Assembly: GCF_000620465.1 (NCBI RefSeq)
Contig: NZ_JIBE01000004.1
Span: 1,426,001 to 1,490,000, forward strand
DNA from: Ralstonia sp. UNC404CL21Col
GTDB lineage: Bacteria; Pseudomonadota; Gammaproteobacteria; Burkholderiales; Burkholderiaceae
Length of the DNA stretch: 64,000 nucleotides
Direction: 5' to 3'
Shown here: piece by piece, positions 38,074-64,000 of the stretch
Position numbering within the stretch: position 1 is the stretch's first letter
Layout of the letters: every line of letters starts with the position of its first letter
Program-made: the position numbers and the translations under genes
Notes under the pieces: generated by a model
Database searches by the model: none
What the model was told of the DNA's origin: nothing
Seen by the model: only the letters and a program-made list of their open reading frames with translations

Positions 38074-38092
38074 CGGCGGACCATGTCCGCCG
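38074..38092 (-). terminator. Terminator of the aminopeptidase gene
   Basis: Perfect 8-bp stem CGGCGGAC with a CAT loop. Read on the minus strand it is followed by TTTTT, so it stops transcription leaving the aminopeptidase gene. On the plus strand it is flanked by an A-run and would be a weak terminator for the metal-efflux operon that ends at 38047. Confidence 0.75.
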
Positions 38093-38114
38093 AAAATCAG
38101 GAGCCACCCTTGCA

Positions 38115-38142
38115 GCGGGCCGCATCGTCAGACGCGGCCCGC
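38115..38142. terminator. Second hairpin between efflux operon and aminopeptidase gene
   Basis: 9-bp perfect stem GCGGGCCGC/GCGGCCCGC with a 10-base loop, 13 bp from the aminopeptidase stop. No T-run follows, so it may act as an mRNA 3'-end stabiliser or as part of a paired barrier with the neighbouring terminator. Confidence 0.5.
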
Positions 38143-38154
38143 TTGCATTGGCGC

Positions 38155-40395
38155 TTACCGCTTGATGTCGGTCAGATGCTTCATGAGACCTTCGTAGCGG
38201 AACTTGTGGATCGGGCGATCCATCGACTGCATTTCCTGCAACTGCACCGCTTGCGGACGCAGCGAGCCGGTCGGCTTCACAGACTGGGCGGCCAGGGTTG
38301 CCACCGCAGGCTGGAAGTTCTTGATGCCGACGATCTGGTCGTACTGCGCCTTAGTGATGAGCTGCGCGTTATACAGCTGCGTGGCATCGCCTGCGATGTT
38401 GGTCTTGGCCGCATCGCTGCTGATGGACCCGGCCTGTGCCAGCAGGTTGCTCCACAGCGTCGGGCTGTAGTTGGTCACGTAGTAGTCCAGGCCCGACGGG
38501 TTGGCCAGCACGGCCGAGCACGTCGGCAGCGTGACCTGCGCGGTCTGCTGGTCGAGCACGATGGTCTGCGATTGACCAAAGTTGTCGCCATAAGCCAGCG
38601 TGAGCGGCACGTTCCACTGGTAGCCCGAATAGACGTTCTTGTTCGGGAAGGCCTTCTGCGTGATGGTCAGCACGTTCTGGTTGGTGGCCGGATTGCACTG
38701 CGCATCGATCGTGACGAGCGGCAGGCCGGTCTGGCGCACGAAGCTGTCGCCCACCTTGCCCACCGGCTTGCCGCTGGCCGCTTCCAGTTCTGCCCACAGG
38801 CGCGGTGGCGTGCCGTTGCCGAACTTGTATTTGTTCAGGTAGCTCTGCAGGCCCTTGCGCATGGCGTCCTTGCCGACGTAGTTCTCGAGCATCTGCAGGA
38901 CATGGCCGCCCTTGTTGTAGGCAAAGCTGTCGAGGAAGTCCATCGAGCCGGCGTCGCTCAGGTTGTGCTGCACCGGCACGGCTGTCGGCTGCAGATCCAG
39001 CGTGATCACGCGTTGCTTGACCGCCGCGTAGTTGGCCCACGTGTTGCCCTGGAACTCGGGGTGCAGCGTGATCTTCGTGACGTTCTCGAACCAGTTGGCG
39101 AAGGACTCGTTCAGCCAGATGTCGTCCCACCAGTCCAGCGTGACCAGGTCACCAAACCATTGGTGGGCCAGTTCATGCGACACCACGACGAACGAGCGTG
39201 CCTTACCCATCGAGTGGACCGTCGTCGGTGCGCCATCGGGCGGCACCAGCACCTGGTCGGCAAACTCGAAGATGGCGCCCCAGTTCTCCATGCCGCCAAA
39301 GCCGGCATTCTTGTTGTCGTAGCTGTCGTTGGCGACGATGGTGTCCATCTTGTCGAACGGCAGCGGGATCTGGAAGTAGTTGTAGTAGTGGTTCAGCGCT
39401 TCCTTCGTGAACTGCATGCCGGCCACTGCCGAGTGCGCCTCGCCAGGCGGCACCCACCAGCGCAGGCGCATGCTGCTGCCATCGAGCGGGTTGGTGAACT
39501 GGTCTTCCAGGATGTCGAACTTGCCGCCGCCGAAGAACAGCAGGTACGCCGGCATCGACGGTGTCTTGGCAAACGACACCTGCTGATAGCCATCCGGCAG
39601 CTTGGTGGCGCCCGTCTGCCTGCCGTTGGCCACGGCCTTCCAGTCGCCCGGAATTTCCGCCGTCACTTCGAAGGTATTGCGGAAGGCCGGCTCATCCCAG
39701 CTCGGGAACCATTCACGCGCGAAGTTCGATTCGCCCTGCGTGACGATAGCGTCCGAACTCTCGCCGGTTGCCGCCTGCAGGCCCAGCTTGAAGATGCCCT
39801 CGGCCTTGGTGAAGTTGATCGTGCCCGTCCATTCCATGTGCAGCACGTAGTTGCCGGGCTTGATGTCTCCGGTCGGGTCGCGCAGGTCATAGAAGGCGCC
39901 TTGCGATTGCGGAATCGGCACGAGCACGCGCGACGCGCCATTGCCCGAAGTGGGCGTGAGCGTCAGGCGCGAGGCGTCGAGCTTCAGGTCGCGCACGGCC
40001 AGCGTCACGGCGCCGGTCTGCTTGGTGACCTTGATCTCCACATCGGCGCGGCCCGAGAAGCTGTTCAGGTCTGCGCTCGGGCGGAACCACAGCTTGTAGT
40101 TGACCGGCCTGATGTAGTCCGGGAGTTCCACCGGCGGCACCGTCGCGTCGACGGCAGGTGCCTGCGCATTGGTGTTGCCGGTATTGGTATTGCCCTGCTG
40201 CTGCGAGCCGTTTGCGTCCAGCTTGCCGCCGGCCGGCGTGAGCGCGTCATCTCCGCCGCCGCCGCAGGCGGCCAGAATCAGCGCGGCCGCAGCCTGAGCC
40301 ACGAGTGCCAGCTTGAATGAACGACGTGTCCGGGCGTTGTACGCGCGCCCGGTGTCTGTCGTGGCCGTACGACGGTGCGTTGTCGAATCCCGCAT
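38155..40395 (-). CDS. Secreted M1-family metallo-aminopeptidase, lipoprotein
   Basis: A 746-residue zinc aminopeptidase. The zinc site is HELAHQW (407-411) with the second Glu in LNESFANW, and the exopeptidase motif GGMENWGA is present. The N-terminus has a lipobox ILAAC followed by Gly/Asp then an Asn/Gln/Gly-rich linker (about 50-80), so it is an outer-membrane or surface-anchored lipoprotein rather than a cytosolic PepN. The ATG at 40395 has AGGAGA. It trims N-terminal residues from peptides outside the cytoplasm and may feed the peptide-type importer, though they are not adjacent. It ends beside two hairpins. Confidence 0.9.
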   Translation of the reverse strand: MRDSTTHRRTATTDTGRAYNARTRRSFKLALVAQAAAALILAACGGGGDDALTPAGGKLDANGSQQQGNTNTGNTNAQAPAVDATVPPVELPDYIRPVNYKLWFRPSADLNSFSGRADVEIKVTKQTGAVTLAVRDLKLDASRLTLTPTSGNGASRVLVPIPQSQGAFYDLRDPTGDIKPGNYVLHMEWTGTINFTKAEGIFKLGLQAATGESSDAIVTQGESNFAREWFPSWDEPAFRNTFEVTAEIPGDWKAVANGRQTGATKLPDGYQQVSFAKTPSMPAYLLFFGGGKFDILEDQFTNPLDGSSMRLRWWVPPGEAHSAVAGMQFTKEALNHYYNYFQIPLPFDKMDTIVANDSYDNKNAGFGGMENWGAIFEFADQVLVPPDGAPTTVHSMGKARSFVVVSHELAHQWFGDLVTLDWWDDIWLNESFANWFENVTKITLHPEFQGNTWANYAAVKQRVITLDLQPTAVPVQHNLSDAGSMDFLDSFAYNKGGHVLQMLENYVGKDAMRKGLQSYLNKYKFGNGTPPRLWAELEAASGKPVGKVGDSFVRQTGLPLVTIDAQCNPATNQNVLTITQKAFPNKNVYSGYQWNVPLTLAYGDNFGQSQTIVLDQQTAQVTLPTCSAVLANPSGLDYYVTNYSPTLWSNLLAQAGSISSDAAKTNIAGDATQLYNAQLITKAQYDQIVGIKNFQPAVATLAAQSVKPTGSLRPQAVQLQEMQSMDRPIHKFRYEGLMKHLTDIKR

Positions 40396-46485: not shown

Positions 46486-47640
46486 TTACTGGCGCGCCTT
46501 CAGGCGCCACAGCGACGTGACCTCGGCAACCCGCGCGCGATAGAGCGGGTCGTTTTCATCGGACGCCTTCGGGTGCTTCGGCTTGATGTCTTGCCGGGCC
46601 ACCACCTGCAGGCCGGCAGCGTCGATCATCGCCAGCAGGGCATCGCGCGTGCGCAGGCCAAGATGCTCGGCAAAGTCCGACAGGATCAACCAGCCCTCGC
46701 CATTCGGCTCCAGATGGGCGGCCAAGCCATCCAGGAAGCCGCGCAGCATGCGACTGTCCGGGTCGTAGACGGCGCGCTCGATGGGCGAGCTGGGTCGCGC
46801 CGGCAGCCACGGCGGGTTGCACACGATCAGCGGCGCACGGCCTTCGGGAAACAGATCTGCATCGACAACGTCCACCCGCGCTTGCAGACCGAGACGCGCC
46901 AGATTGTCGCGCGCACAGGCCAGCGCGCGCGGGTCCTGATCGGTGCCGATGACGTGCTTCACGCCGCGTTTGGCCAGCACCGCTGCCAGCACGCCCGTGC
47001 CCGTGCCGATATCGAATGCCAGGGTTTTCGAAGGCAACGGCGCATTCGCCACGAGATCGATGTATTCGCCGCGCACCGGGGAGAACACGCCGTAGTGCGG
47101 GTGAATGCGCTCACCACCGAGCGCCGGAATCTCGACCCCCTTCTTGCGCCACTCATGCGCGCCGATCAAACCAAGCAGCTCGCGCAGCGAGACGACGGAA
47201 GCAGCGTGGCTCGTGCCGTAGGCCTCGGTGCAGGCCTCGCGCATGTCGGGTGCGCGGCGCAGCGGGATCGTGTAATCCGCATCCAGCGGAATCAGCAGCA
47301 TGCCCAGCGTGCGGGCGCGCTGCGATTGCGCCTGTCGATGCAGGTTGAACGCATCGATGGGCGAGGCGGGTTCCTTGCGCGCCCTGGCGGGTTTGCGATC
47401 CGTGCGGCGAGACATGGCCTGCAGCAGTTGGCGCGCGTTCTGGAAGTCGCCTTGCCAGAGCAACGCAGTGCCTTCGCAGGCGAGGCGGTAGGCGGTATCG
47501 GCGGGGGTCCGGTCATCTGCGATGACCACGCGCTTGGGCGGCGGGTTGCCGGCTTCGGACCGCCAGAGGGCGGTATGGACGGCGTCGCTGCTGGCTTCAG
47601 GGCGGTCGTCGGTCCAGGTGAGGGTGGGGTGTTCGGTCAC
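46486..47640 (-). CDS. Class I SAM-dependent methyltransferase (PrmC/RlmG-like, NPPW motif)
   Basis: A 384-residue protein. An N-terminal region of about 190 residues precedes a Rossmann methyltransferase domain with motif I AFDIGTGTGVLAAVLAKRG and motif IV VCNPPWLPA, the NPPW/NPPY signature of enzymes that methylate an amide or exocyclic amino group, such as glutamine in release factors or guanine/adenine in rRNA. The target is not known. The start is uncertain: GTG at 47640 begins the conserved part, while an ATG at 47712 would add 24 poorly conserved residues; no strong ribosome site precedes either. Confidence 0.82.
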   Translation of the reverse strand: MTEHPTLTWTDDRPEASSDAVHTALWRSEAGNPPPKRVVIADDRTPADTAYRLACEGTALLWQGDFQNARQLLQAMSRRTDRKPARARKEPASPIDAFNLHRQAQSQRARTLGMLLIPLDADYTIPLRRAPDMREACTEAYGTSHAASVVSLRELLGLIGAHEWRKKGVEIPALGGERIHPHYGVFSPVRGEYIDLVANAPLPSKTLAFDIGTGTGVLAAVLAKRGVKHVIGTDQDPRALACARDNLARLGLQARVDVVDADLFPEGRAPLIVCNPPWLPARPSSPIERAVYDPDSRMLRGFLDGLAAHLEPNGEGWLILSDFAEHLGLRTRDALLAMIDAAGLQVVARQDIKPKHPKASDENDPLYRARVAEVTSLWRLKARQ

Positions 47641-47938
47641 GGGGGAAATGGGCGGGAAAGCGGGGAGGGTGCGGTAGTGGGCGACACGATACCGCTGTCG
47701 GCCTGATCGCACAAATGCTGGCGGGCAACCGAGCGGCGCGGCACTGACGCCGTTTCGGTGGGCCCCGTGTCAGAAAAGGCCCAATGCCACGCTATGAGCC
47801 GAAGGACGTCGCCCCGTATTGCCCGCGAGCCGATTGACCGCTGCGATTCTTCTGGCGAAGTGATTCTTCTGCCACCCAAAGACGCCAGTCCGACCCGGCA
47901 GGCAGTGTAAACTCCAGCCTTTTTTCGGCACTCGTAGC
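47641..47938. promoter_or_regulatory. Upstream region of the DUF3348-DUF802-OmpA-DUF2894 operon
   Basis: A 298-bp gene-free stretch holding the operon promoter and the start region of the divergent methyltransferase gene. A 10-bp direct repeat lies at 47845-47871. TGTAAACT at about 47906-47913 could be a -10-like element near the ATG at 47939, but no clear -35 partner is seen. No obvious sigma-54 or sigma-28 promoter. Confidence 0.4.
47845..47871. repeat. Direct repeat upstream of the motor-like operon
   Basis: GATTCTTCTG occurs exactly at 47845-47854 and 47862-47871, a period of 17 bp, about 70-95 bp before the DUF3348 start. It may be a regulator half-site pair. Confidence 0.5.
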
Positions 47939-48673
47939 ATGGCGCACGCCCAGCAACGCAGGGCGCTCAGCGGCCCCGCGCTGATCCGCATTCTTGCTCG
48001 CCTGACGGACGTCGACGTTTCCGCATCTGCGCAGCCCCTTTCTGACCGGTTAAGCCAATGGCTCAGCTGGACGGATGCCATCACGCTTTCGTCGGCATTG
48101 AGCGCGGCCCCGCCCGCCGGTGCCTCCAGCACGCGGCCCGTCGGGCCGGACGCCGAGACCATCGGCGGCCGTGTCCGTGCGGCGTTGACGAAATCCATCG
48201 CGTCCAGCTGCGCGCCAGAGACGAGGCCCGGGCCACGCGCACCGATCCAGAACCCGGCGGTGCCGGTGGTGGTCGACTATGCCGATTTCCGGCAGCGCTA
48301 CGTGCTGATGCAGCAGACGATGGAACTGGAGATCGGCGACCTGCGTGGCCGCCTGCGGCGCCTATTGGCTGCCAGGACGCCCGACCTCGCGCGGCTAGCA
48401 GTGCTGGATGCCAGCATGGAGCAGGCGCTCGCCGGCCGCGAACGTTCGTTGCTCGGAGCCATTCCGTCGATGCTGGGGCCGTACTTCGAGCGCCTGCGCG
48501 CGGCCGAGCAGCAGCGGCAGGCCGAGCTGCCCGCGGAAGGCCAGGCCACCCCCTCCACATCCCGCGCCTGGCTGGACGCGTTCCGCAAGGATATGCAGAG
48601 CGTGCTCCTGGCCGAGCTTGATGTTCGTTTTCAACCGATCGACGGGTTGCTCGCAGCCCTTCGCCCCCGCTAA
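47939..48673 (+). CDS. DUF3348 family protein, first gene of motor-like operon
   Basis: A 244-residue protein of a Burkholderiales-type family of unknown function. It is cytoplasmic: no signal peptide or membrane segment. The N-terminal part (1-60) has ALIRILARLTDVDV and LSQWLSWTDAITLSSAL; a Pro/Ala-rich linker (about 60-110) leads to a helical domain with YADFRQRYVLMQQTMELEIGDLRGRLRRLL and a C-terminal WLDAFRKDMQSVLLAELDVRFQP. It is 18 bp before the DUF802 gene and surely co-transcribed. It may be a cytosolic partner of the DUF802 tail, which is inference from context only. Confidence 0.85.
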   Translation: MAHAQQRRALSGPALIRILARLTDVDVSASAQPLSDRLSQWLSWTDAITLSSALSAAPPAGASSTRPVGPDAETIGGRVRAALTKSIASSCAPETRPGPRAPIQNPAVPVVVDYADFRQRYVLMQQTMELEIGDLRGRLRRLLAARTPDLARLAVLDASMEQALAGRERSLLGAIPSMLGPYFERLRAAEQQRQAELPAEGQATPSTSRAWLDAFRKDMQSVLLAELDVRFQPIDGLLAALRPR

Positions 48674-48691
48674 GCGGGACAGACACCATTC

Positions 48692-50998
48692 ATGTCCAGA
48701 CATCACCTGAATCTCATCGTTTTTTCTGTCGGGCTGGCGGCCTTGGGATGGATTGCCGTCGGCTACCTCGTCGGCGGAAACCTGCTGGCGCTGGCTGTCA
48801 CGCTCGTAATCGGTGCCGCCTATGTGGCAGGCGCGCTCGAGCTGCGCCGCTATCGTCAGGCGACGGGCAGCGTCACGCAGGCCGTGGCGGGGCTGACCGA
48901 GCCACCGCCCAATCTGGCGGCGTGGCTGGAGCCACTGCACCCGAGCGTGCGCAATGCCGTGCGCCTGCGTGTGGAAGGCGAGCGCGCTGCGCTGCCGGCG
49001 CCCGCGCTGACGCCGTATCTGGTGGGCCTGCTGGTGCTGCTTGGCATGCTCGGCACGCTGCTCGGCATGGTGGTGACGCTCAAGGGCACGGGCGCAGCCC
49101 TGGAAAGCGCGACGGATCTGCAGGCGATCCGCGCTTCGCTGGCCGCCCCGATCAAGGGTCTGGGATTCTCGTTCGGAACCTCGATTGCGGGTGTGGCAAC
49201 GTCGGCCATGCTGGGGCTGCTGTCGGCGCTGTGCCGGCGCGAGCGGCTGCAGGCAGTCCAGGCGCTCGACGCGAACATCGCCACCACGCTACGCATGTAT
49301 TCGCATGCGCATCAGCGTGAAGAGACGTTCAAGCTTCTGCAGCGGCAAGCCGATGTGATGCCCGCATTGGTGGACCGCCTGCAGGCGATGATGGTGTCGC
49401 TGGAGCAGCAGGGCGCAGCCAGCAGCGAGCGGCAGATCGCCGCGCAGCAAGCGTTTCTCGACAAGACGGAAGTGGCCTACAGCCAGCTCGCGTCTTCGGT
49501 TGGCCAGTCGTTGAAGGACAGCGCAGCCGAAAGCGCGCGGGTTGCCAGCGCGGCGCTGCAGCCTGTGGTGGAAACGACGATGGCGGGCCTCGCGCGTGAA
49601 TCGGCCGCGCTGCAGGAGACGGTCACGCACGCGGTGCAGCGTCAGCTGGAGGGCCTGTCGTCACGCTTTGAGGCTACGGCGGAGGCGGTCTCCGGCATCT
49701 GGAACAACGCCCTGTCGGCGCATCAACGCTCGAGTGAGGCGCTGGTCGGTCAGGTCGGCACGTCGCTGGACCGGTTTGCCGAGACATTCGAGCAACGCTC
49801 GGCGCGGTTGCTCGATGGCGTTGCCGAGCGACTGGACGCCACCGCAGGCGGCCTGTCCACCGCCTGGCGCGATGCGCTGGCCCGCCAGGAACACGCCCAA
49901 GCCGAGTTGGCCACCCAGAATCAGCGCGCGCTGGAAGCGGCTGCCGCCACGTTCGAGCAGCACGCCGTGTCGTTGCAAGACGCGTCGCGCCAGTCGCATA
50001 CGGCACTGCAAGCCGCACTGGAAGCACGAGACGCGCAACGTCTGGCGGCCTGGACCGGGGCGCTCAGCGCAACGGGCGAAAAACTGAGCCAGGCGTGGGA
50101 GAAGGCCGGCGCCGATACGGCGAGCCGTCAACAAGACATCTGCGATGCGTTGGCGCAGACCGCGCGCGATATCGCCGCGCAGCAGGACGCATCGCGTCAG
50201 TCGCAAGCCGCGTTGCAAGCTGCGCTGGAAGCCCGAGACGCACAACGTCTGGCCGCCTGGGCCGATGCCCTCGGCGCCATGGGCGAGAAACTGACCCAGG
50301 CATGGGAAAAGGCCGGCGCCGATACGGCGAACCGCCAGCAGCAGATTTGCGACGCACTGGCGCAGACGGCACGCGACATCTCCGCGCAAACGCAGGCGCA
50401 CGCCAACGACACGATCGGCGAGATTTCGCGCCTGGTCCAAGCCGCGTCGGAGGCGCCCAAGGCCGCGGCCGAAGTGGTGGCCGAGCTGCGCCAGAAATTG
50501 TCCGACAGCATGGTGCGCGATACCGCGATGCTGGACGAGCGTGCGCGCCTGCTGGGCACGCTGGAAACGCTGCTCGACGCCGTCAACCATGCGTCGACCG
50601 AGCAGCGCACGGCGGTGGATGCGCTCGTGGCGACGTCGGCGGATCTGCTTGAGCGCGTTGGCGTGCGGTTCACCGATCGGGTGGAAGCCGAGACCGGCAA
50701 GCTTGGCGCGGTGGCTGCCCAGGTGACCGGCAGTGCGGTGGAGGTGGCGAGCCTGGGCGAGGCGTTTGGCGCGGCCGTGCAGCTGTTTGGCGAGTCGAAC
50801 GACAAGCTTGCAGCCCAGTTGCAGCGCATCGAAGCTGCACTCGACAAGTCGCTCACCCGCAGCGACGAACAGCTTGCCTACTACGTGGCCCAGGCGCGTG
50901 AGGTGATCGACCTGAGCATGCTGTCTCAAAAGCAGATCCTCGAAGACCTGCAGCGCCTGGGTGACCAGCGCGCACTGGCCGGGGCCGAAGCGGCATGA
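48692..50998 (+). CDS. DUF802 membrane protein with MotA/ZorA-like membrane part and long coiled-coil tail
   Basis: A 768-residue inner-membrane protein. Two close transmembrane segments (about 6-26 and 30-50) are followed by a short soluble part (51-104), then two more (about 106-131 and 155-180) containing GMLGTLLGMVVTL and GTSIAGVATSAM, with polar Thr122, Thr163 and Thr170, the pattern of MotA/TolQ/ExbB proton-channel subunits. The rest (181-768) is a long Ala/Gln/Glu-rich helical tail, including an exact-period 69-residue tandem repeat. The order and size match ZorA-type motor stators rather than TolQ. It overlaps the OmpA gene by 4 bp. Family function is not known. Confidence 0.85.
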   Translation: MSRHHLNLIVFSVGLAALGWIAVGYLVGGNLLALAVTLVIGAAYVAGALELRRYRQATGSVTQAVAGLTEPPPNLAAWLEPLHPSVRNAVRLRVEGERAALPAPALTPYLVGLLVLLGMLGTLLGMVVTLKGTGAALESATDLQAIRASLAAPIKGLGFSFGTSIAGVATSAMLGLLSALCRRERLQAVQALDANIATTLRMYSHAHQREETFKLLQRQADVMPALVDRLQAMMVSLEQQGAASSERQIAAQQAFLDKTEVAYSQLASSVGQSLKDSAAESARVASAALQPVVETTMAGLARESAALQETVTHAVQRQLEGLSSRFEATAEAVSGIWNNALSAHQRSSEALVGQVGTSLDRFAETFEQRSARLLDGVAERLDATAGGLSTAWRDALARQEHAQAELATQNQRALEAAAATFEQHAVSLQDASRQSHTALQAALEARDAQRLAAWTGALSATGEKLSQAWEKAGADTASRQQDICDALAQTARDIAAQQDASRQSQAALQAALEARDAQRLAAWADALGAMGEKLTQAWEKAGADTANRQQQICDALAQTARDISAQTQAHANDTIGEISRLVQAASEAPKAAAEVVAELRQKLSDSMVRDTAMLDERARLLGTLETLLDAVNHASTEQRTAVDALVATSADLLERVGVRFTDRVEAETGKLGAVAAQVTGSAVEVASLGEAFGAAVQLFGESNDKLAAQLQRIEAALDKSLTRSDEQLAYYVAQAREVIDLSMLSQKQILEDLQRLGDQRALAGAEAA
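49976..50389 (+). repeat. 207-bp in-frame tandem duplication inside the DUF802 tail
   Basis: Copy 1 is 49976-50182 (residues 429-497), copy 2 is 50183-50389 (498-566). The period is exactly 69 codons and 59 of 69 residues agree. Both start QDASRQS and contain LQAALEARDAQRLAAW and GEKL-QAWEKAGADTA. The copies differ at many third bases, so the duplication is not brand new. It may change the tail length in steps. Confidence 0.9.
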
Positions 50999-51648
50999 AC
51001 GACGAGTTCGACGGTGGCATCGAGGCCACGGCGCCCGTGTGGGCCGCGTTTGGCGACCTGATGTCGGTGCTGCTGGGCGCGTTTGTGCTGATTCTGGTGG
51101 GTGTGATCGGCGTGCAGCTGGAGCTGTCCTCCAAGCTGGAAAACGAGGTCAAGCAGCGCGAGGCCGAAGCCCAGCGCCGCAAGACGCTGGAGCAGGCGCT
51201 GGCCGGCCCGCTGGCGGCCGGGCGCGTGACACTCGTCAACGGGCGCATCGGCATCAATGGCAATGTGCTCTTTGCGATCAACTCCGATCAGTTGCAGCCG
51301 GAAGGTCGCGCGCTGCTGAAGAGCCTGGCGGGGCCGCTGGGTGCTTATCTCACCTCGCGTGAAGAGATCTTGATGGTGAGCGGCTTTTCCGACGACCAGC
51401 AGGTGCGTGCTGGTAACCGGCTGTTTGCCGATAACTGGGAGCTGTCCGCCAAACGTGCCTTGACGGTGACGCGTGCGTTGATCGACGAGGGCATTCCTGC
51501 GTCGAGCGTGTTTGCGGCGGCGTTCGGATCGCAGCAGCCCGTGAGTTCCAATGCAGACGACGTCGGCCGCGCCAAGAACCGGCGTGTGGAAATCGCGCCT
51601 GTCCCGAGGCAGGCCGCTTCCAACGGTGGACGTCGTGAGCCGCATTGA
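50995..51648 (+). CDS. OmpA-family MotB/ZorB-like stator protein
   Basis: A 217-residue protein with one N-terminal transmembrane segment (about 19-40) reading AAFGDLMSVLLGAFVLIL. Asp21 falls where the proton-carrying Asp of MotB lies (Asp-Phe-Met-Thr in E. coli). A helical linker (41-75) leads to an OmpA-type peptidoglycan-binding domain (about 80-205) with FAINSDQLQPEGRALL, SGFSDDQQV and NWELSAKRALTVTRALI, which holds the Asp and Arg that bind diaminopimelate. It overlaps the DUF802 gene by ATGA and the DUF2894 gene by 14 bp. Together with DUF802 it should form an ion-driven complex anchored in the cell wall. Confidence 0.88.
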   Translation: MNDEFDGGIEATAPVWAAFGDLMSVLLGAFVLILVGVIGVQLELSSKLENEVKQREAEAQRRKTLEQALAGPLAAGRVTLVNGRIGINGNVLFAINSDQLQPEGRALLKSLAGPLGAYLTSREEILMVSGFSDDQQVRAGNRLFADNWELSAKRALTVTRALIDEGIPASSVFAAAFGSQQPVSSNADDVGRAKNRRVEIAPVPRQAASNGGRREPH

Positions 51649-52267
51649 GGCCTCGACGCAGGCCATGCTCGACAGCTGGCGCGCCAGCGGCGCGGACCGG
51701 CTGGACCGCGTGCGCTTTGGCTTCATCGAGGCATTGCATCGGCGTGCGGCCGGACAAACCGGCGAGGCGCGGCGCATTCTCGATGCGCGGCTCGACGAGC
51801 TGATCGCGGCCTACGCGGCAGACCTCGATCGCCCGACGGCAACGTCCGACGCGAGCGACGCAAAAGCGCCTGCCGACAGCGCGTTGGCCAAACTGCTGCG
51901 TGACATTGCCAGCCGGCAACGCACGGATGTCGGCGAGGCTTCGGATGGCGGATCTGGGCCTCATCCGCGTGCATTGCCGGAGCTGAAGATTCTCGAGGAC
52001 GTGCGCGACACGTGGTCCCGCGTCAGCGCCGAGAAACAGTTGCGCGACGCGCTGGACAAGGTGCCGGTCAATGCCGGTCCGCTGAATTCGAGCAGTCTTG
52101 TGCATCGTTCATTGCTATTGATGCGCGAGGTCTCACCCGATTATCTGCGGCAGTTTTTGTCGTATGTGGATGCGCTTTCGTGGCTGGAACGCATGAGCGG
52201 GGACGGCGCCGTCGGTGGTCAGGATGCGGCACGCGGCGGCGGAAAGGGGGCTCGCAAGGCGCGCTAG
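51635..52267 (+). CDS. DUF2894 family protein, last gene of motor-like operon
   Basis: A 210-residue protein of unknown function, predicted cytoplasmic. The GTG at 51635, preceded by GGTGGA, is preferred; the frame is open further upstream inside the OmpA gene. The N-terminal helix SRIEASTQAMLDSWRASGADRLDRVRFGFIEAL is followed by a variable linker and a C-terminal helical domain (LKILEDVRDTWSRVSAEKQLRDALDK, LLLMREVSPDYLRQFLSYVDALSWLERM). It ends Lys/Arg/Gly-rich. It lies immediately before a strong terminator, which closes the operon. It may act with DUF3348 as a cytosolic partner of the motor-like pair. Confidence 0.8.
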   Translation: MSRIEASTQAMLDSWRASGADRLDRVRFGFIEALHRRAAGQTGEARRILDARLDELIAAYAADLDRPTATSDASDAKAPADSALAKLLRDIASRQRTDVGEASDGGSGPHPRALPELKILEDVRDTWSRVSAEKQLRDALDKVPVNAGPLNSSSLVHRSLLLMREVSPDYLRQFLSYVDALSWLERMSGDGAVGGQDAARGGGKGARKAR

Positions 52268-59356: not shown

Positions 59357-60016
59357 CTAGCTGCGTAGCGGCCAGACGCAGTCGTCGGCGACGGCAAAAA
59401 GCGCTTCTCCGGGCGTGGCCGGCGCGGTCCACAAGCCGGTGAACTCGCCGAATGCGGGGAGCAGGGCGCCGGTCGCTCCAAACCGGAAACACGGCAGCCG
59501 GAGGCGGTCCCGAGCCGGTCCACTGATGACGACGCCCGGGTGCACATGGCCGGCGATGACGTAGCGACCGGGCACCGCCTGCGGCTCATGGCAGAGCGCG
59601 AAGGGGCCGATCCCCCACGGCTCTTCGACCACGTTGAAGCGCAGGTCCGCAGGTGGGTCGCCCGCATGGCGGTCGTGGTTGCCGCGGACCAGCGTGCATG
59701 CGACCTCGGCGTGGCGCGCGCGCCAGGCGGCGAGTGCATCGATGGCGGCGTGCGCCTCGCGCGCGTGGAGAAGGTCGCCCAGCCACGCGATATGCGCCAC
59801 CGGCAATCGGGCGAGCATGGCGTCTAGGCGGGCGACCGCCTGGCTGGTGCTGCCGGCCGGCACCGGCACCCCGCGCGCGCGAAAGGTCGCCGCCTTGCCG
59901 AAATGCGCATCGGCCACCATCAGCATGCGTTGCGCAGGCCACCAGAGCGCACGCTCGGGCAGCAGCCATACCGTCTCGCCTGCGCACTGCATGGCGACGT
60001 CATTGGGGGCAGTCAT
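59357..60016 (-). CDS. pdeM: Ligase-associated DNA-damage endonuclease/phosphoesterase
   Basis: A 219-residue calcineurin-like phosphoesterase. Metal motifs are VADAHFGK (D-x-H), WLGDLLHAR (GD), VRGNHDRH (GNHD) and GHVHPGV. It belongs to the ligase-associated group encoded with a helicase and an ATP-dependent ligase. It overlaps the helicase gene by 4 bp, so it is the last gene of the operon. It probably processes DNA ends. Confidence 0.93.
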
Positions 60017-62628
60017 AGCAGTGGCAGCGGCTTCGATGTCTTGCGTGGCCGGCGCGCGGGGCGGGTGGATTTGCCCGCAGTGTCGGGCGATTCAGTCAGG
60101 CGCAGGGCGGCCTGGACCTCCGTCTCGATCTCCGGCCGTGTCGCGGCATCCGGATCGGTAGGTTCTGGGCCAGCGGCGCGCTCGGCTTCGGCGAGCATGC
60201 GTGCGATCCGATCAGCGAGTTTCTCCGTCGAAAGCTGCTCGCGAAACCGCTCCACCATCAACGGAAAACCGAACGGCGAAGGCCGCTTCAATGCGCAGAG
60301 CTGGAGCTGCAAGCCGCGCATGCGGATCAGAGCGGCTTCGATGCGGTCGAGGTCCAGCTCCTGGCGCAGCACTTCGGTTTCTGCCTGCGAGAGAAGCAGG
60401 TTGCCGGGGTCGTGGCGCCGGAAGACTTCATAGAACAGGCCGGACGATGCCTGCAACTGCCGCGCGCTCTTGTGCGCGCCGGGGTAACCCTGAAACACCA
60501 GCCCCGACACGCGGGCGATCTCGCGAAAGCGGCGCTGAGCCAGTTCTCCGGCGTTGAGGCTGGCCAGCACATCCTGCATCAGCGTGTGAGTGGCAAAGAG
60601 TTCGCCGCTGGCCAGCAGCGCCGGCCAGTCGATGGGCGTGGCCGACAGCAGTTCGAGGCCGTAGTCGTTGAACGCCAGTGAGAACGTCGCCGGCGTGCGA
60701 TTGGCTGCGCGCCAGCCAAGCAGGCTCGCGAGCCCCAGGTGCGCATGCCGCCCGGCAAACGGGTACAGAAACAGATGCCAGCCCTCGCGCGACTGCAGCG
60801 TCTCGGCCACCAGCGTGGCCGTGGTGGGCAGCGCAGACCAGCGCGCCTGCAACTCCAGCAAGGGGCGCGCGGCCTGCATTTCGGGGCTGTCGAAGCGGGC
60901 GTGTGCTGCCGCATCAAGCTGCGCCACCACCGCGTGCGCCAGCTCGGTGGAAAGCGGCATGCGACCGCCGTTCCAGCGCGGCACGGCGGCGCGTTTGCCG
61001 GTGGCTCGCCGCACATAGGCGGTCATGTCCTGCACGCGCACCAGCTCCAGCAGGCGGCCTGCAAACAGGAAATTGTCACCGGGGTGCAGCCGCGCAATGA
61101 AACCTTCTTCAATCGACCCCAGCGCGCCGCCGCCGGATGCGTGCCACCAGCGCACGGTCATCGTTGCATCGCTGACGATGGTGCCGATGCTCATGCGGTG
61201 TCGCCGCGCAAGACGCGCGTCTGGCACGCGCCAGACGCCGTGTTCGTCGGGCACCACGCGATGGTAGTCGGGATACGCCGTGAGCGAGTGGCCGCCCTGC
61301 CGTACGAAGTCCAGCGCCCATTGCCATTCGTCGTCGCGCAAGTCGCGGTAGGCCCAGGCGCGGCGCACTTCCTCCAACAGCGCGTTGGGCACGAAACCAC
61401 CGCCCAGCGCCACCGTCACCAGATGCTGCACCAGCACGTCCAGCGGCTTGTGCGGCGAGGTGCGGGCCTCCACCTGGCCCGACATGGCTGCTGCGCGGGC
61501 GGCCGCGCCTTCCACGAGTTCAAGGCTGTGCGTCGGCACCACCGTTACGCGAGACGGGCGGCCGGGCGCGTGGCCAGATCGCCCAGCGCGCTGCAACAGC
61601 CGCGCCACGCCCTTGGGCGAGCCGATCTGCAGTACGCGTTCCACCGGCAGAAAGTCGACACCGAGATCGAGGCTGGACGTGCAGAACACGGCCTTGAGCA
61701 GGCCCTGCTTGAGGCCGGTCTCGACCCAGTCGCGCGTTGCGCGATCCAGCGAGCCGTGATGCAACGCAATCAGCCCCGCCCATTCCGGCCGCGCGTTGAT
61801 GACGGCCTGATACCACAGCTCCGCTTGCGACCGCGTGTTGAGAAACACCAGCGCGGTGCGGGCGCTTTCCAGCTCTTCCAGCACATGCGGCAGCATCGCC
61901 ATGCCCAGATGCCCGGCCCACGGAAACCGGCCTACGCCGTCGGGGAGCAGCGTATCGATCTCCATGCGCTTGGGCAGGTGGCCCTGCACCAGCGTGCCGG
62001 GGGCGGGCGTTCCTGCATCGCCCAGCGCGTCCATGGCTTCCGCCAGGTTGCCCAGCGTGGCGGACAACCCCCACACGATCAGGTCCGGCGACCACGTGCG
62101 CAGCCGGGCCAGCGCCAACTGCACCTGCACGCCACGCTTGTTGCCGACGAGTTCATGCCATTCATCCACGACCACCACGTGCACCGAGCCCAGGGCCTCG
62201 CGTGCATCGGCGCGTGCAAGCAGCAACGACAGGCTTTCGGGTGTGGTCACCAGGGCGGTGGGCAAGCGGCGTGATTGCGCGGCGCGTTCGGCGCTGCCGG
62301 TGTCGCCGGTGCGCAAGCCGAGCGTCCAGTGCGGCGCCAGTGCCTGTGCCGCTTCGGTCAATGCGCGCGTGGTGTCGGCCGCCAGCGCGCGCATGGGCGT
62401 GAGCCACAGCACCGACAACGGCGGTGCGTTGCCACGCCCGCGCACCTGCGCCAACCGCTGCAACGCCCCGAGCCAGACTGCATAGGTTTTCCCCGCGCCT
62501 GTGGTGGCATGCAGCAGGCCCGATTCGCCGCGCGCCATGGCCGACCACACGGTGCGCTGGAACGGCATGGGAGTCCAGCCACGCGCAGCAAACCAAGCAT
62601 CAAGATCGGGCAGTACAGGTTCGTTCAT
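60013..62628 (-). CDS. Ligase-associated DEXH-box DNA helicase (Lhr-like)
   Basis: An 871-residue superfamily-2 helicase. Walker A is [10 protein letters not shown], motif [10 protein letters not shown] (DEWH instead of DEVH), GLSATLGN motif III and [11 protein letters not shown] motif VI. The large C-terminal part is Lhr-specific. It overlaps its neighbours by 4 bp on both sides. Ligase-associated Lhr proteins unwind DNA during repair. The 30 last residues are Lys/Arg/Pro-rich. Confidence 0.93.
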
Positions 62629-64000
62629 GACGGCGGTAGCAGGCCTTCCAGCGTCTGCAGCGTATCGGCCTCTGCGACTGGCTTGTCGTGTCGCCAGCGC
62701 AGCATACGCGGAAACCGCACCGCGATGCCGCTCTTGTGCCGAGGGCTGCGCGCAATGCCTTCAAAGCCCAGTTCGAACACCAGCGTCGGCGCCACGCTGC
62801 GCACGGGGCCGAAGCTCTCCACCGTCGTCTTGCGGATGAGCGCGTCGACCTGGCGGATCTCTGCGTCGCTCAGGCCGGAGTACGCTTTGGCAAACGGCAC
62901 CAGCTTGCGCTCGGGTACATCCGGCGGCGCATCCCACACGGCAAAGGTGTAGTCGGTATACAGGCTCGCGCGCCGGCCGTGGCCGCGCTGTGCATAGATG
63001 AGGACGGCGTCCACAGAGAACGGATCGATCTTCCACTTCCACCACACGCCCACGTCCTTGGTGCGGCCCACGCCGTAGCGCGCGTCGCGCCGCTTGAGCA
63101 TCAGCCCCTCCACGCCAAGCTCGCGGGACGCCTCACGCTGCTGGGCAAGATGCTGCCAGTCGTCGCCTTCCAGCAGCGGAGACAGCTCCAGCGCCGGATG
63201 GATGCAATCGGCAATCACGCGTTCGAGTTGCGCGCGCCGTTCGCTCTGCGGGTGCTCGCGCAGATCCTGCCCCTGCCATTCCAGCAGGTCATACGCCAGC
63301 AGCACGGCCGGCGCCTCGCGCAGCACGCGCGCGTTCAGCGTCTTGCGGCCGATGCGTTGCTGAAGCAGGGCAAACGGCTGCACGCGGCCCGCCTGCCAGA
63401 CTACGATCTCGCCGTCGAGCACGGTGCCTGGCGGCAGTACCTCCGCCATGGCGGACAGTTCGGGAAAGCGATCGGTGATGAGTTCCTCGCCGCGCGACCA
63501 CAGCCATGCGCTGTCGGCGCGACGCACGAGCTGCGCGCGGATGCCATCCCACTTCCATTCGATTTGCCATTCAGCGGGCGTGCCGAGCAGGGTGTCGAAG
63601 GCTTCCACGTCAGCCTGCAGCGGGTGCGCGAGAAAGAACGGATACGGGTGTCCGGTATCGAGCGCGTGGCCATCGACGCTGGCATCGGCCAGCAGCGCGC
63701 GATAGCGCTCGGCGGTGGGCGCCTGTCCGATGTCGGTATAGCCCATCAGCCGTTGCGCCACGTGCTTGGGGTCGGTGCCGCCCATCTCCGCCAGCGCGCG
63801 CGTGACCAGCAGTTTTGACACCCCCACGCGAAACGCCCCCGTGATCAGCTTCATCAACACCAGCCGCGCATGCAGCGGGAGCCCACGGCACAGCTCCGCC
63901 AGGCGCGGCAGCACCGCTTCGGGCGGCTGCCCGCGCAACGGCAGCAAGCGGGCTTCCATCCATTCGGCCAGGCTGGCGTCGTCTGCGTGATCTGCATCGG
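62625..64000 (-). CDS. ATP-dependent DNA ligase, ligase-associated repair operon (start beyond window)
   Basis: At least 458 residues are visible; the frame is still open at the window end. The nucleotidyl-acceptor Lys is in [12 protein letters not shown], followed by the adenylation motifs [18 protein letters not shown] and [16 protein letters not shown], and a C-terminal OB fold ([22 protein letters not shown]). The N-terminal DNA-binding domain ([19 protein letters not shown]) is partly cut. It seals nicks with ATP, unlike the essential NAD ligase. It overlaps the helicase start by 4 bp. The family's exonuclease gene would be expected just upstream, outside the window. Confidence 0.93.

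Follow-up and report, generated by a model that had tools for sequence, protein, structure and literature searches.

What do four adjoining plus-strand genes encode that fill positions 47939-52267 of a 64,000-nucleotide stretch of the Ralstonia sp. UNC404CL21Col genome (contig NZ_JIBE01000004.1 of assembly GCF_000620465.1, positions 1,426,001 to 1,490,000; referred to as the window), and to what would a motor made from them pass on its motion? The genes follow each other in the order DUF3348, ZorA (DUF802), ZorB (OmpA) and DUF2894, and the initial annotation had read them as a probable MotAB/ZorAB-type motor of unknown purpose that, with no nuclease or helicase next to it, might not be a defence system. 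We report that PADLOC-DB profiles name all four proteins as type III Zorya proteins (each E ≤ 2e-77), and that the operon is almost certainly a Zorya type III system. Since each of four curated profiles matches at E < 1e-17 along a single colinear stretch, the gene set is more than a product of chance. Taken as a whole, the explanation that we favour, a Zorya type III operon encoding an ion-driven motor whose tail tip might hand on to the DUF3348/DUF2894 pair, is very probable.

Zorya type III was defined in 2021 (Payne et al., PMC8565338) from 6,401 gene pairs with DUF3348 and DUF2894 genes on either side; in the passages of that paper available to us the definition sentence prints zorBC for the pair and elsewhere the system is given as ZorA, ZorB, ZorF and ZorG. 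The window operon is made up of the same four families, with the motor pair between the DUF3348 and DUF2894 genes, and the gene content is identical. According to the same passages, type III is defined by two DUF proteins that replace ZorCDE, so the missing nuclease or helicase does not speak against defence, and the homologous system of Stenotrophomonas nitritireducens in E. coli BL21-AI lowered the plaquing of at least one phage and shielded liquid cultures from PVP-SE1 at a multiplicity of infection (MOI) below 0.1 (PMC8565338). The purpose is thus not unknown, and the reading that these genes have no known function was rejected on the PADLOC-DB matches and these passages. The tested Stenotrophomonas system is likened to the window operon by its families; the nearest class-level relatives fetched (family f60, L119-L121) match the window at 62-68% in the ZorA pore, 72-77% in ZorB and 35-43% in the DUF proteins. 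The labels of the flanking proteins are in conflict, in that PADLOC-DB 2.0.0 has DUF2894 as ZorF3 and DUF3348 as ZorG3, the reverse of the papers, where DUF3348 is ZorF and DUF2894 is ZorG (available passages of PMC8565338 and PMC11890865).

For types I and II the available passages of PMC11890865 describe a 5:2 complex in which Asp24 of ZorB, peptidoglycan binding and the tail are required for defence, and beside the motor type II has the nickase ZorE and type I the predicted helicase ZorD. The window pair is like these in having a MotA-like ZorA with a long tail and a ZorB with a transmembrane (TM) Asp and a peptidoglycan-binding domain, but its ZorA lies below the cut-offs of NCBIfam ZorA_1 (E 5e-4) and ZorA_2 (E 4e-6), both matched on the TM3/TM4 region, and no ZorC, ZorD or ZorE family was found beside the operon at E ≤ 1e-10 (24 chosen window open reading frames (ORFs), some of them not real genes, and one more). 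Type III has the same motor but no nickase or helicase, which makes it the simplest system in which to study what the motor transmits. The operon itself is a known kind of system, and what makes it interesting is that an effector is missing, that it is near-fixed and that its tail is modular; what our data add to the available passages on Zorya III is the near-fixation in the family, a modular tail with repeat periods close to whole turns, and a conserved tail tip together with a weak co-divergence of DUF2894.

Judged by sequence, the ZorA/ZorB pair is most likely an ion-driven, MotAB-like complex of the inner membrane in which ZorB reaches the peptidoglycan. A hydropathy scan gave four segments in ZorA, one in ZorB and none in DUF3348 and DUF2894. 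Those of ZorA (cores at residues 9-27, 31-49, 110-128 and 163-181) have the 2+2 order that had been described initially, the motifs GTLLGMVV and GTSIAGVATS are both present, and approximately 585 residues of tail extend beyond the fourth segment; the single ZorB core (residues 22-40) stands directly after Asp21. A profile search of the pore region (ZorA residues 1-225 against the PDB) returned one match at E ≤ 0.1, the 696-residue chain 8vvn_C (E 4.7e-5, spanning residues 109-190, i.e. TM3 and TM4), which carries the title 'MotA/TolQ/ExbB proton channel domain-containing protein'. This chain is presumably the Shewanella type I ZorA of PMC11890865, where the methods text names ZorA residues 237-696. 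The ZorB profile matched MotB, PomB and other OmpA-like domains, and together with the ZorA3 and ZorB3 matches these searches bear out the proposed type of motor. Poor conservation of Asp21 and of the TM3/TM4 threonines had been set beforehand as a result that would speak against it; Asp21 of ZorB is invariant (58/58, window included), as are W16, F19, L22 and M23, and in ZorA the pore residues T122, T129, T163, S164 and S171 are found in 59/59 sequences (window included). The ZorB residues N147, L150, S151 and R154 of the OmpA-like motif, which we take to have a wall-binding role, are each present in 58/58 (window included).

Purifying selection was estimated for eight of the 15 Ralstonia loci as the ratio of non-synonymous to synonymous change (dN/dS), with medians of 0.024 for ZorB, 0.093 for ZorA, 0.129 for DUF3348 and 0.257 for DUF2894; the dS of the operon (0.24-0.39) lies inside the range of its neighbours (0.16-0.50), and so does its dN/dS.

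The pair shares the TM3-TM4 pore helices, the Asp and the OmpA-like domain with the flagellar MotAB/PomAB stators but differs in its long ZorA tail (~553-585 residues) and in a MotA_ExbB match of 14.4 bits, under the curated cut-off of 22.9. No flagellar family was found among the scanned neighbours, and the identity as a flagellar stator was rejected; MotA_ExbB was matched above its cut-off at four other places in the same genome. That the OmpA protein is instead an outer-membrane protein, and the pair no motor, is hardly credible: outer-membrane lipoproteins of the YiaD/YfiB kind are also among the matches of the OmpA domain, but at the start of ZorB a short acidic stretch is followed by one TM helix, with no lipobox cysteine by eye (no signal-peptide program was used), and its invariant Asp21 and the coupling to ZorA in every complete locus scanned led us to reject the outer-membrane placement.

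Operon conservation, another comparison called for by the initial annotation, was high. All four genes, on one strand and in one order, were found in 57 of 61 stretches (window included); the four misses are two contig ends (L067 and L108), a stretch without the ZorA core (L101) and a false match (L125), and one of the 57 full sets (L068) has a ZorA with a disrupted reading frame. A search with ZorB only gave at least 512 relatives, and among the best 80 of these, 75 loci hold all four genes in the same order while the remaining five are cut off close upstream by the end of their contig; the two sets have five records in common (identical ZorB). Moreover, DUF2894 is present in 19 of the 300 genomes sampled for the order, and these 19 coincide with the genomes in which DUF3348 is matched at E ≤ 1.3e-27; three weak DUF3348 matches (G307, G429 and G571; E 5.4e-6 to 4.0e-4) had been removed before the count, and the stretch fetched for a weak match, L125, is without ZorAB. 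L101 (G236) is apparently a broken operon: it has DUF3348 and DUF2894, and ZorB is matched in part, but the ZorA pore is missing. One of 14 control genomes, that of Corynebacterium glutamicum, has a DUF2894 match above the cut-off.

In 56 ZorA sequences the pore and the last ~190 residues are conserved and the middle is variable. The commonest residue has a mean share of 0.70-0.90 per 30-residue block of the tail tip (56 sequences), and the median dN/dS of the tip is 0.051 in the eight Ralstonia loci. The hydrophobic period is 3.66 residues (56 sequences; power 3.55 compared with 0.09 at 3.5), as in a coiled coil of the hendecad type, which the tail would therefore resemble. ZorA varies in length between 555 and 1229 residues, with 36 of 129 proteins at 696-702, and its tail between ~340 and 1014, the spread being made by tandem repeats in the mid-tail; L067, L068, L108 and ZorA shorter than 550 residues were excluded from this tail set. 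Tandem repeats with a score of at least 200 were detected in 78 of the 129 ZorA (124 distinct), while 12 shuffled tails scored 34-54. The 16 distinct repeat periods, 33-153 residues long, all lie within 0.17 of a whole turn count at 3.64 residues per turn, a fit matched by 0 of 5000 random sets; part of this regularity is expected, because a duplication that keeps the register of a coiled coil also scores better. The tandem repeat in the window zorA, with a period of 207 bp, had been overlooked by the initial annotation.

Nine Ralstonia loci, the window among them, have a ZorA of 768 residues, two have one of 699, and there is one each of 780 and 837, that is in steps of 69 except for 780, and no variation in length was seen within species for three Paraburkholderia caribensis (812), two P. 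largidicola (812) and two Cupriavidus metallidurans (1031 residues). If each tail were one straight helix, at 0.15 nm per residue it would extend up to ~51-152 nm (83 nm in the window). The range of tail lengths found in nature offers a ready experiment on what the tail does. A PDB search for solved relatives of the tail tip gave weak matches only, the best (E 0.0092) being a designed helical repeat.

DUF2894 has a basic end, with a net charge of at least +4 over the last 30 residues in 107 of 138 homologues. Its divergence follows that of DUF3348 (partial r 0.40, 95% interval 0.28-0.55) and of the ZorA tip (0.30, 0.09-0.46) but not of the ZorA pore (0.00), and the divergence of DUF3348 follows the pore (0.39, 0.21-0.53; 109 loci throughout). 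A filter for the tip motif, passed by 128 of 132 ZorA, was used; when it is left out, and ZorA with broken ends are included, there is no signal for the tip.

To learn how the operon is distributed, we used 299 genomes of the window's family, all at least 90% complete, with HsdR as a control for a patchy defence gene. DUF3348 was detected in 210 of these, HsdR in 111 (108 above the cut-off) and RecA in 293. For the 222 genomes of at least 4 Mb the numbers are 205 for DUF3348 and 93 for HsdR, and for the 77 smaller genomes 5 and 18, respectively. By genus (g1 is Ralstonia, g3 includes Cupriavidus metallidurans, g10 is Caballeronia and g14 Trinickia), DUF3348 is present in 15/15 genomes of g1 (HsdR in 4), 41/41 of g12 (16), 30/31 of g11 (10), 36/41 of g3 (22), 35/40 of g21 (17), 33/41 of g10 (16) and 10/11 of g25 (6), and in 0/41 of g13, with genomes near 2 Mb (9). 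Within the genus Ralstonia 15 of 16 genomes have DUF3348, the exception being 88% complete. Outside the family it was seen in 13 genomes of the 300-genome order sample, and beyond the order in six of the 370-genome class sample. Among viral contigs, a pattern search yielded no confirmed relative; 11 phage records match at less than 60% identity, none covering 80% of ZorB, and 27 plasmid records match, each of at least 366 kb. Near-fixation of the type III operon is not stated in the available passages of the Zorya literature, and in one family it provides native hosts for telling defence from physiology.

The place of the operon and its tree give a mixed picture. One of the 14 further Ralstonia loci is a 3.3-kb contig; 12 of the other 13 retain the methyltransferase and HI0933-like genes upstream, and 8 of the 13 the HU-like and DUF2252 genes downstream. 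In one Ralstonia genome (G009) the operon (L074) is found elsewhere, without the usual upstream genes and with a 699-residue ZorA, and branches outside the other Ralstonia copies. The operon and gyrB are on different contigs in 11 of 12 near-complete genomes of the family (two to seven contigs) and likewise in the genome of the window. For the trees, 29 of 30 genomes were used (G004, without a whole gyrB, was excluded). Patristic distances of the operon and gyrB correlate (r 0.59 for the 29 genomes and r 0.47 for the 25 family members; in neither case was any of 2000 permutations as high), and the two trees have 7 of 26 splits in common (at most two with shuffled names). Ralstonia and g3 as one clade in the operon tree was rejected (p-AU 6.8e-5), while monophyly was not rejected for g12 (p 0.115) or g3 (p 0.086). 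Simple vertical inheritance is thus unsupported, and because of the few common splits and the rejected Ralstonia/g3 grouping the operon seems to have moved between genera and yet to be kept in most relatives with a large genome.

With respect to mechanism, phage entry would disturb the wall, upon which ZorB would grip the peptidoglycan, and ions passing Asp21 and the Thr/Ser residues of ZorA would turn the ring of ZorA together with the coiled-coil tail that it carries in the cytosol; we consider this part reasonably probable. We infer, more tentatively, that the conserved tip, carried on a spacer of repeated helical modules, might hand the motion to DUF2894 and DUF3348 working as a pair. DUF2894 would then sit at the tail tip and, as a first guess, act on DNA or the membrane by way of its basic end.

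Several observations weigh against this explanation. Profile scans gave no enzyme family match for DUF3348 or DUF2894, and neither has a solved relative in the PDB at E ≤ 0.01 (best E 0.018 and 0.22, respectively); the divergence of DUF3348 does not follow the tip (partial r -0.16, -0.31 to 0.07; 109 loci), and the co-variation behind tip docking is weak, with a bootstrap over loci that ignores phylogeny and linkage. Furthermore, the type III activity in the available passages comes from inducible plasmid expression in E. coli, and near-fixation and a kept place in Ralstonia are unlike a patchy defence system. The lack of an enzyme match would also fit Zorya III as an ion-leak (abortive infection) device, in which DUF3348 and DUF2894 merely gate ZorAB and the open channel stops the cell. 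Regulation of ZorAB by these two proteins is the sole type III mechanism offered in the available passages of the literature, where the proton-channel idea is cited as well (PMC8565338), and the protection reported there at an MOI below 0.1 leaves the question of an ion leak undecided. A leak, however, leaves the long tail, its conserved base and tip and the register-keeping spacer without a reason, and we regard such a device as a serious but unlikely alternative to a motor that hands on through its tip.

Near-fixation raises another possibility, namely that the operon encodes a resident physiological motor of family members with large genomes, engaged in e.g. wall sensing, envelope stress or surface growth, for which the block to phage would be a by-product or an effect of overexpression. 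The excess of DUF3348 over HsdR in genomes of at least 4 Mb, the upstream genes conserved in all but one of the 13 Ralstonia loci that have flanks, a dN/dS within the range of the neighbours, and plasmid matches confined to large replicons with no confirmed viral relative are consistent with this. But the operon is rare outside the family, its tree is incompatible with the Ralstonia/g3 clade of gyrB, as would be expected of transferred defence genes, anti-phage activity has been published for type III (PMC8565338), and the distribution of the three Zorya types is called typical of anti-phage systems (PMC11890865; available passages of both); we consider a resident motor improbable. Equally improbable is an extension in which Zorya III would be no casual gene set of a defence island but the resident, near-fixed motor of large-genome Burkholderiaceae. 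Its tail would serve as an evolvable drive shaft, given its length in whole turns by tandem duplications in mid-tail, and the tip complex of DUF2894 and DUF3348 would thereby meet its target at a depth that differs between species, for instance at the nucleoid's edge.

The features of the locus are listed in Table 1. As had been noted, there are four ORFs, and the ZorA stop and the ZorB start have an ATGA at 50995-50998 in common. The listed ORF of DUF2894 runs from 51551 to 52267 on the plus strand (238 residues); its true start is likely GTG 51626 or GTG 51635, overlapping the end of ZorB, rather than ATG 51551, because alignments of the homologues open near ORF residue 38. The DUF802 Pfam match in ZorA (E 3.2e-29) comes as two stretches, and DUF3348 has a single match in its own genome. 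A promoter scan found none, and the three terminator-like sites are no excess over shuffled sequences (mean 4.1).

Table 1. Features of the Zorya type III locus (positions in the window).
Feature	Position	Strand	Evidence
DUF3348 protein, 244 aa	47939..48673	+	PF11828 E 1.2e-85; PDLC00656 ZorG3 E 3.8e-91
ZorA3 (DUF802), 768 aa, predicted MotA-like four-helix pore (~1-215) and long cytosolic tail	48692..50998	+	PADLOC ZorA3 E 0
207-bp tandem repeat, 2.0 copies, corresponding to two 69-residue tail modules	49975..50388	+	Tandem Repeats Finder score 562, 81% matches; best lag 69 residues
Conserved ZorA tail tip, residues ~576-768	50417..50995	+	Share of commonest residue; dN/dS
ZorB3, 217 aa, one TM helix with Asp21 and OmpA-like peptidoglycan-binding domain	50995..51648	+	PADLOC ZorB3 E 7.4e-117; OmpA E 6.7e-18
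DUF2894 protein, basic C-terminal end	51635..52267 (start uncertain)	+	PF11445 E 1.8e-60; PDLC00652 ZorF3 E 1.7e-77

For the neighbourhood, 24 ORFs chosen in 24.7-64 kb of the window and the opposite-strand M1 peptidase were scanned with PADLOC at E ≤ 1e-10, some of the ORFs probably not being a real gene (e.g. 38083-40320 on the plus strand). No clear defence island was seen around the operon in this one window. Two neighbour proteins gave matches, which may well be generic domain matches. The divergent methyltransferase just upstream (46486-47712, minus strand) has a partial match to the mad2 profile (residues 285-430 of 492 positions; E 1.3e-19) and was not seen beside the operon in other genera. 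The other is an Lhr-like DEAD helicase (60013-62628, minus strand) that matches the BrxHI, DpdJ, SngC and HamB profiles, and which together with the adjoining ATP-dependent DNA ligase (60013-63959 for the two, minus strand) is probably a repair pair.

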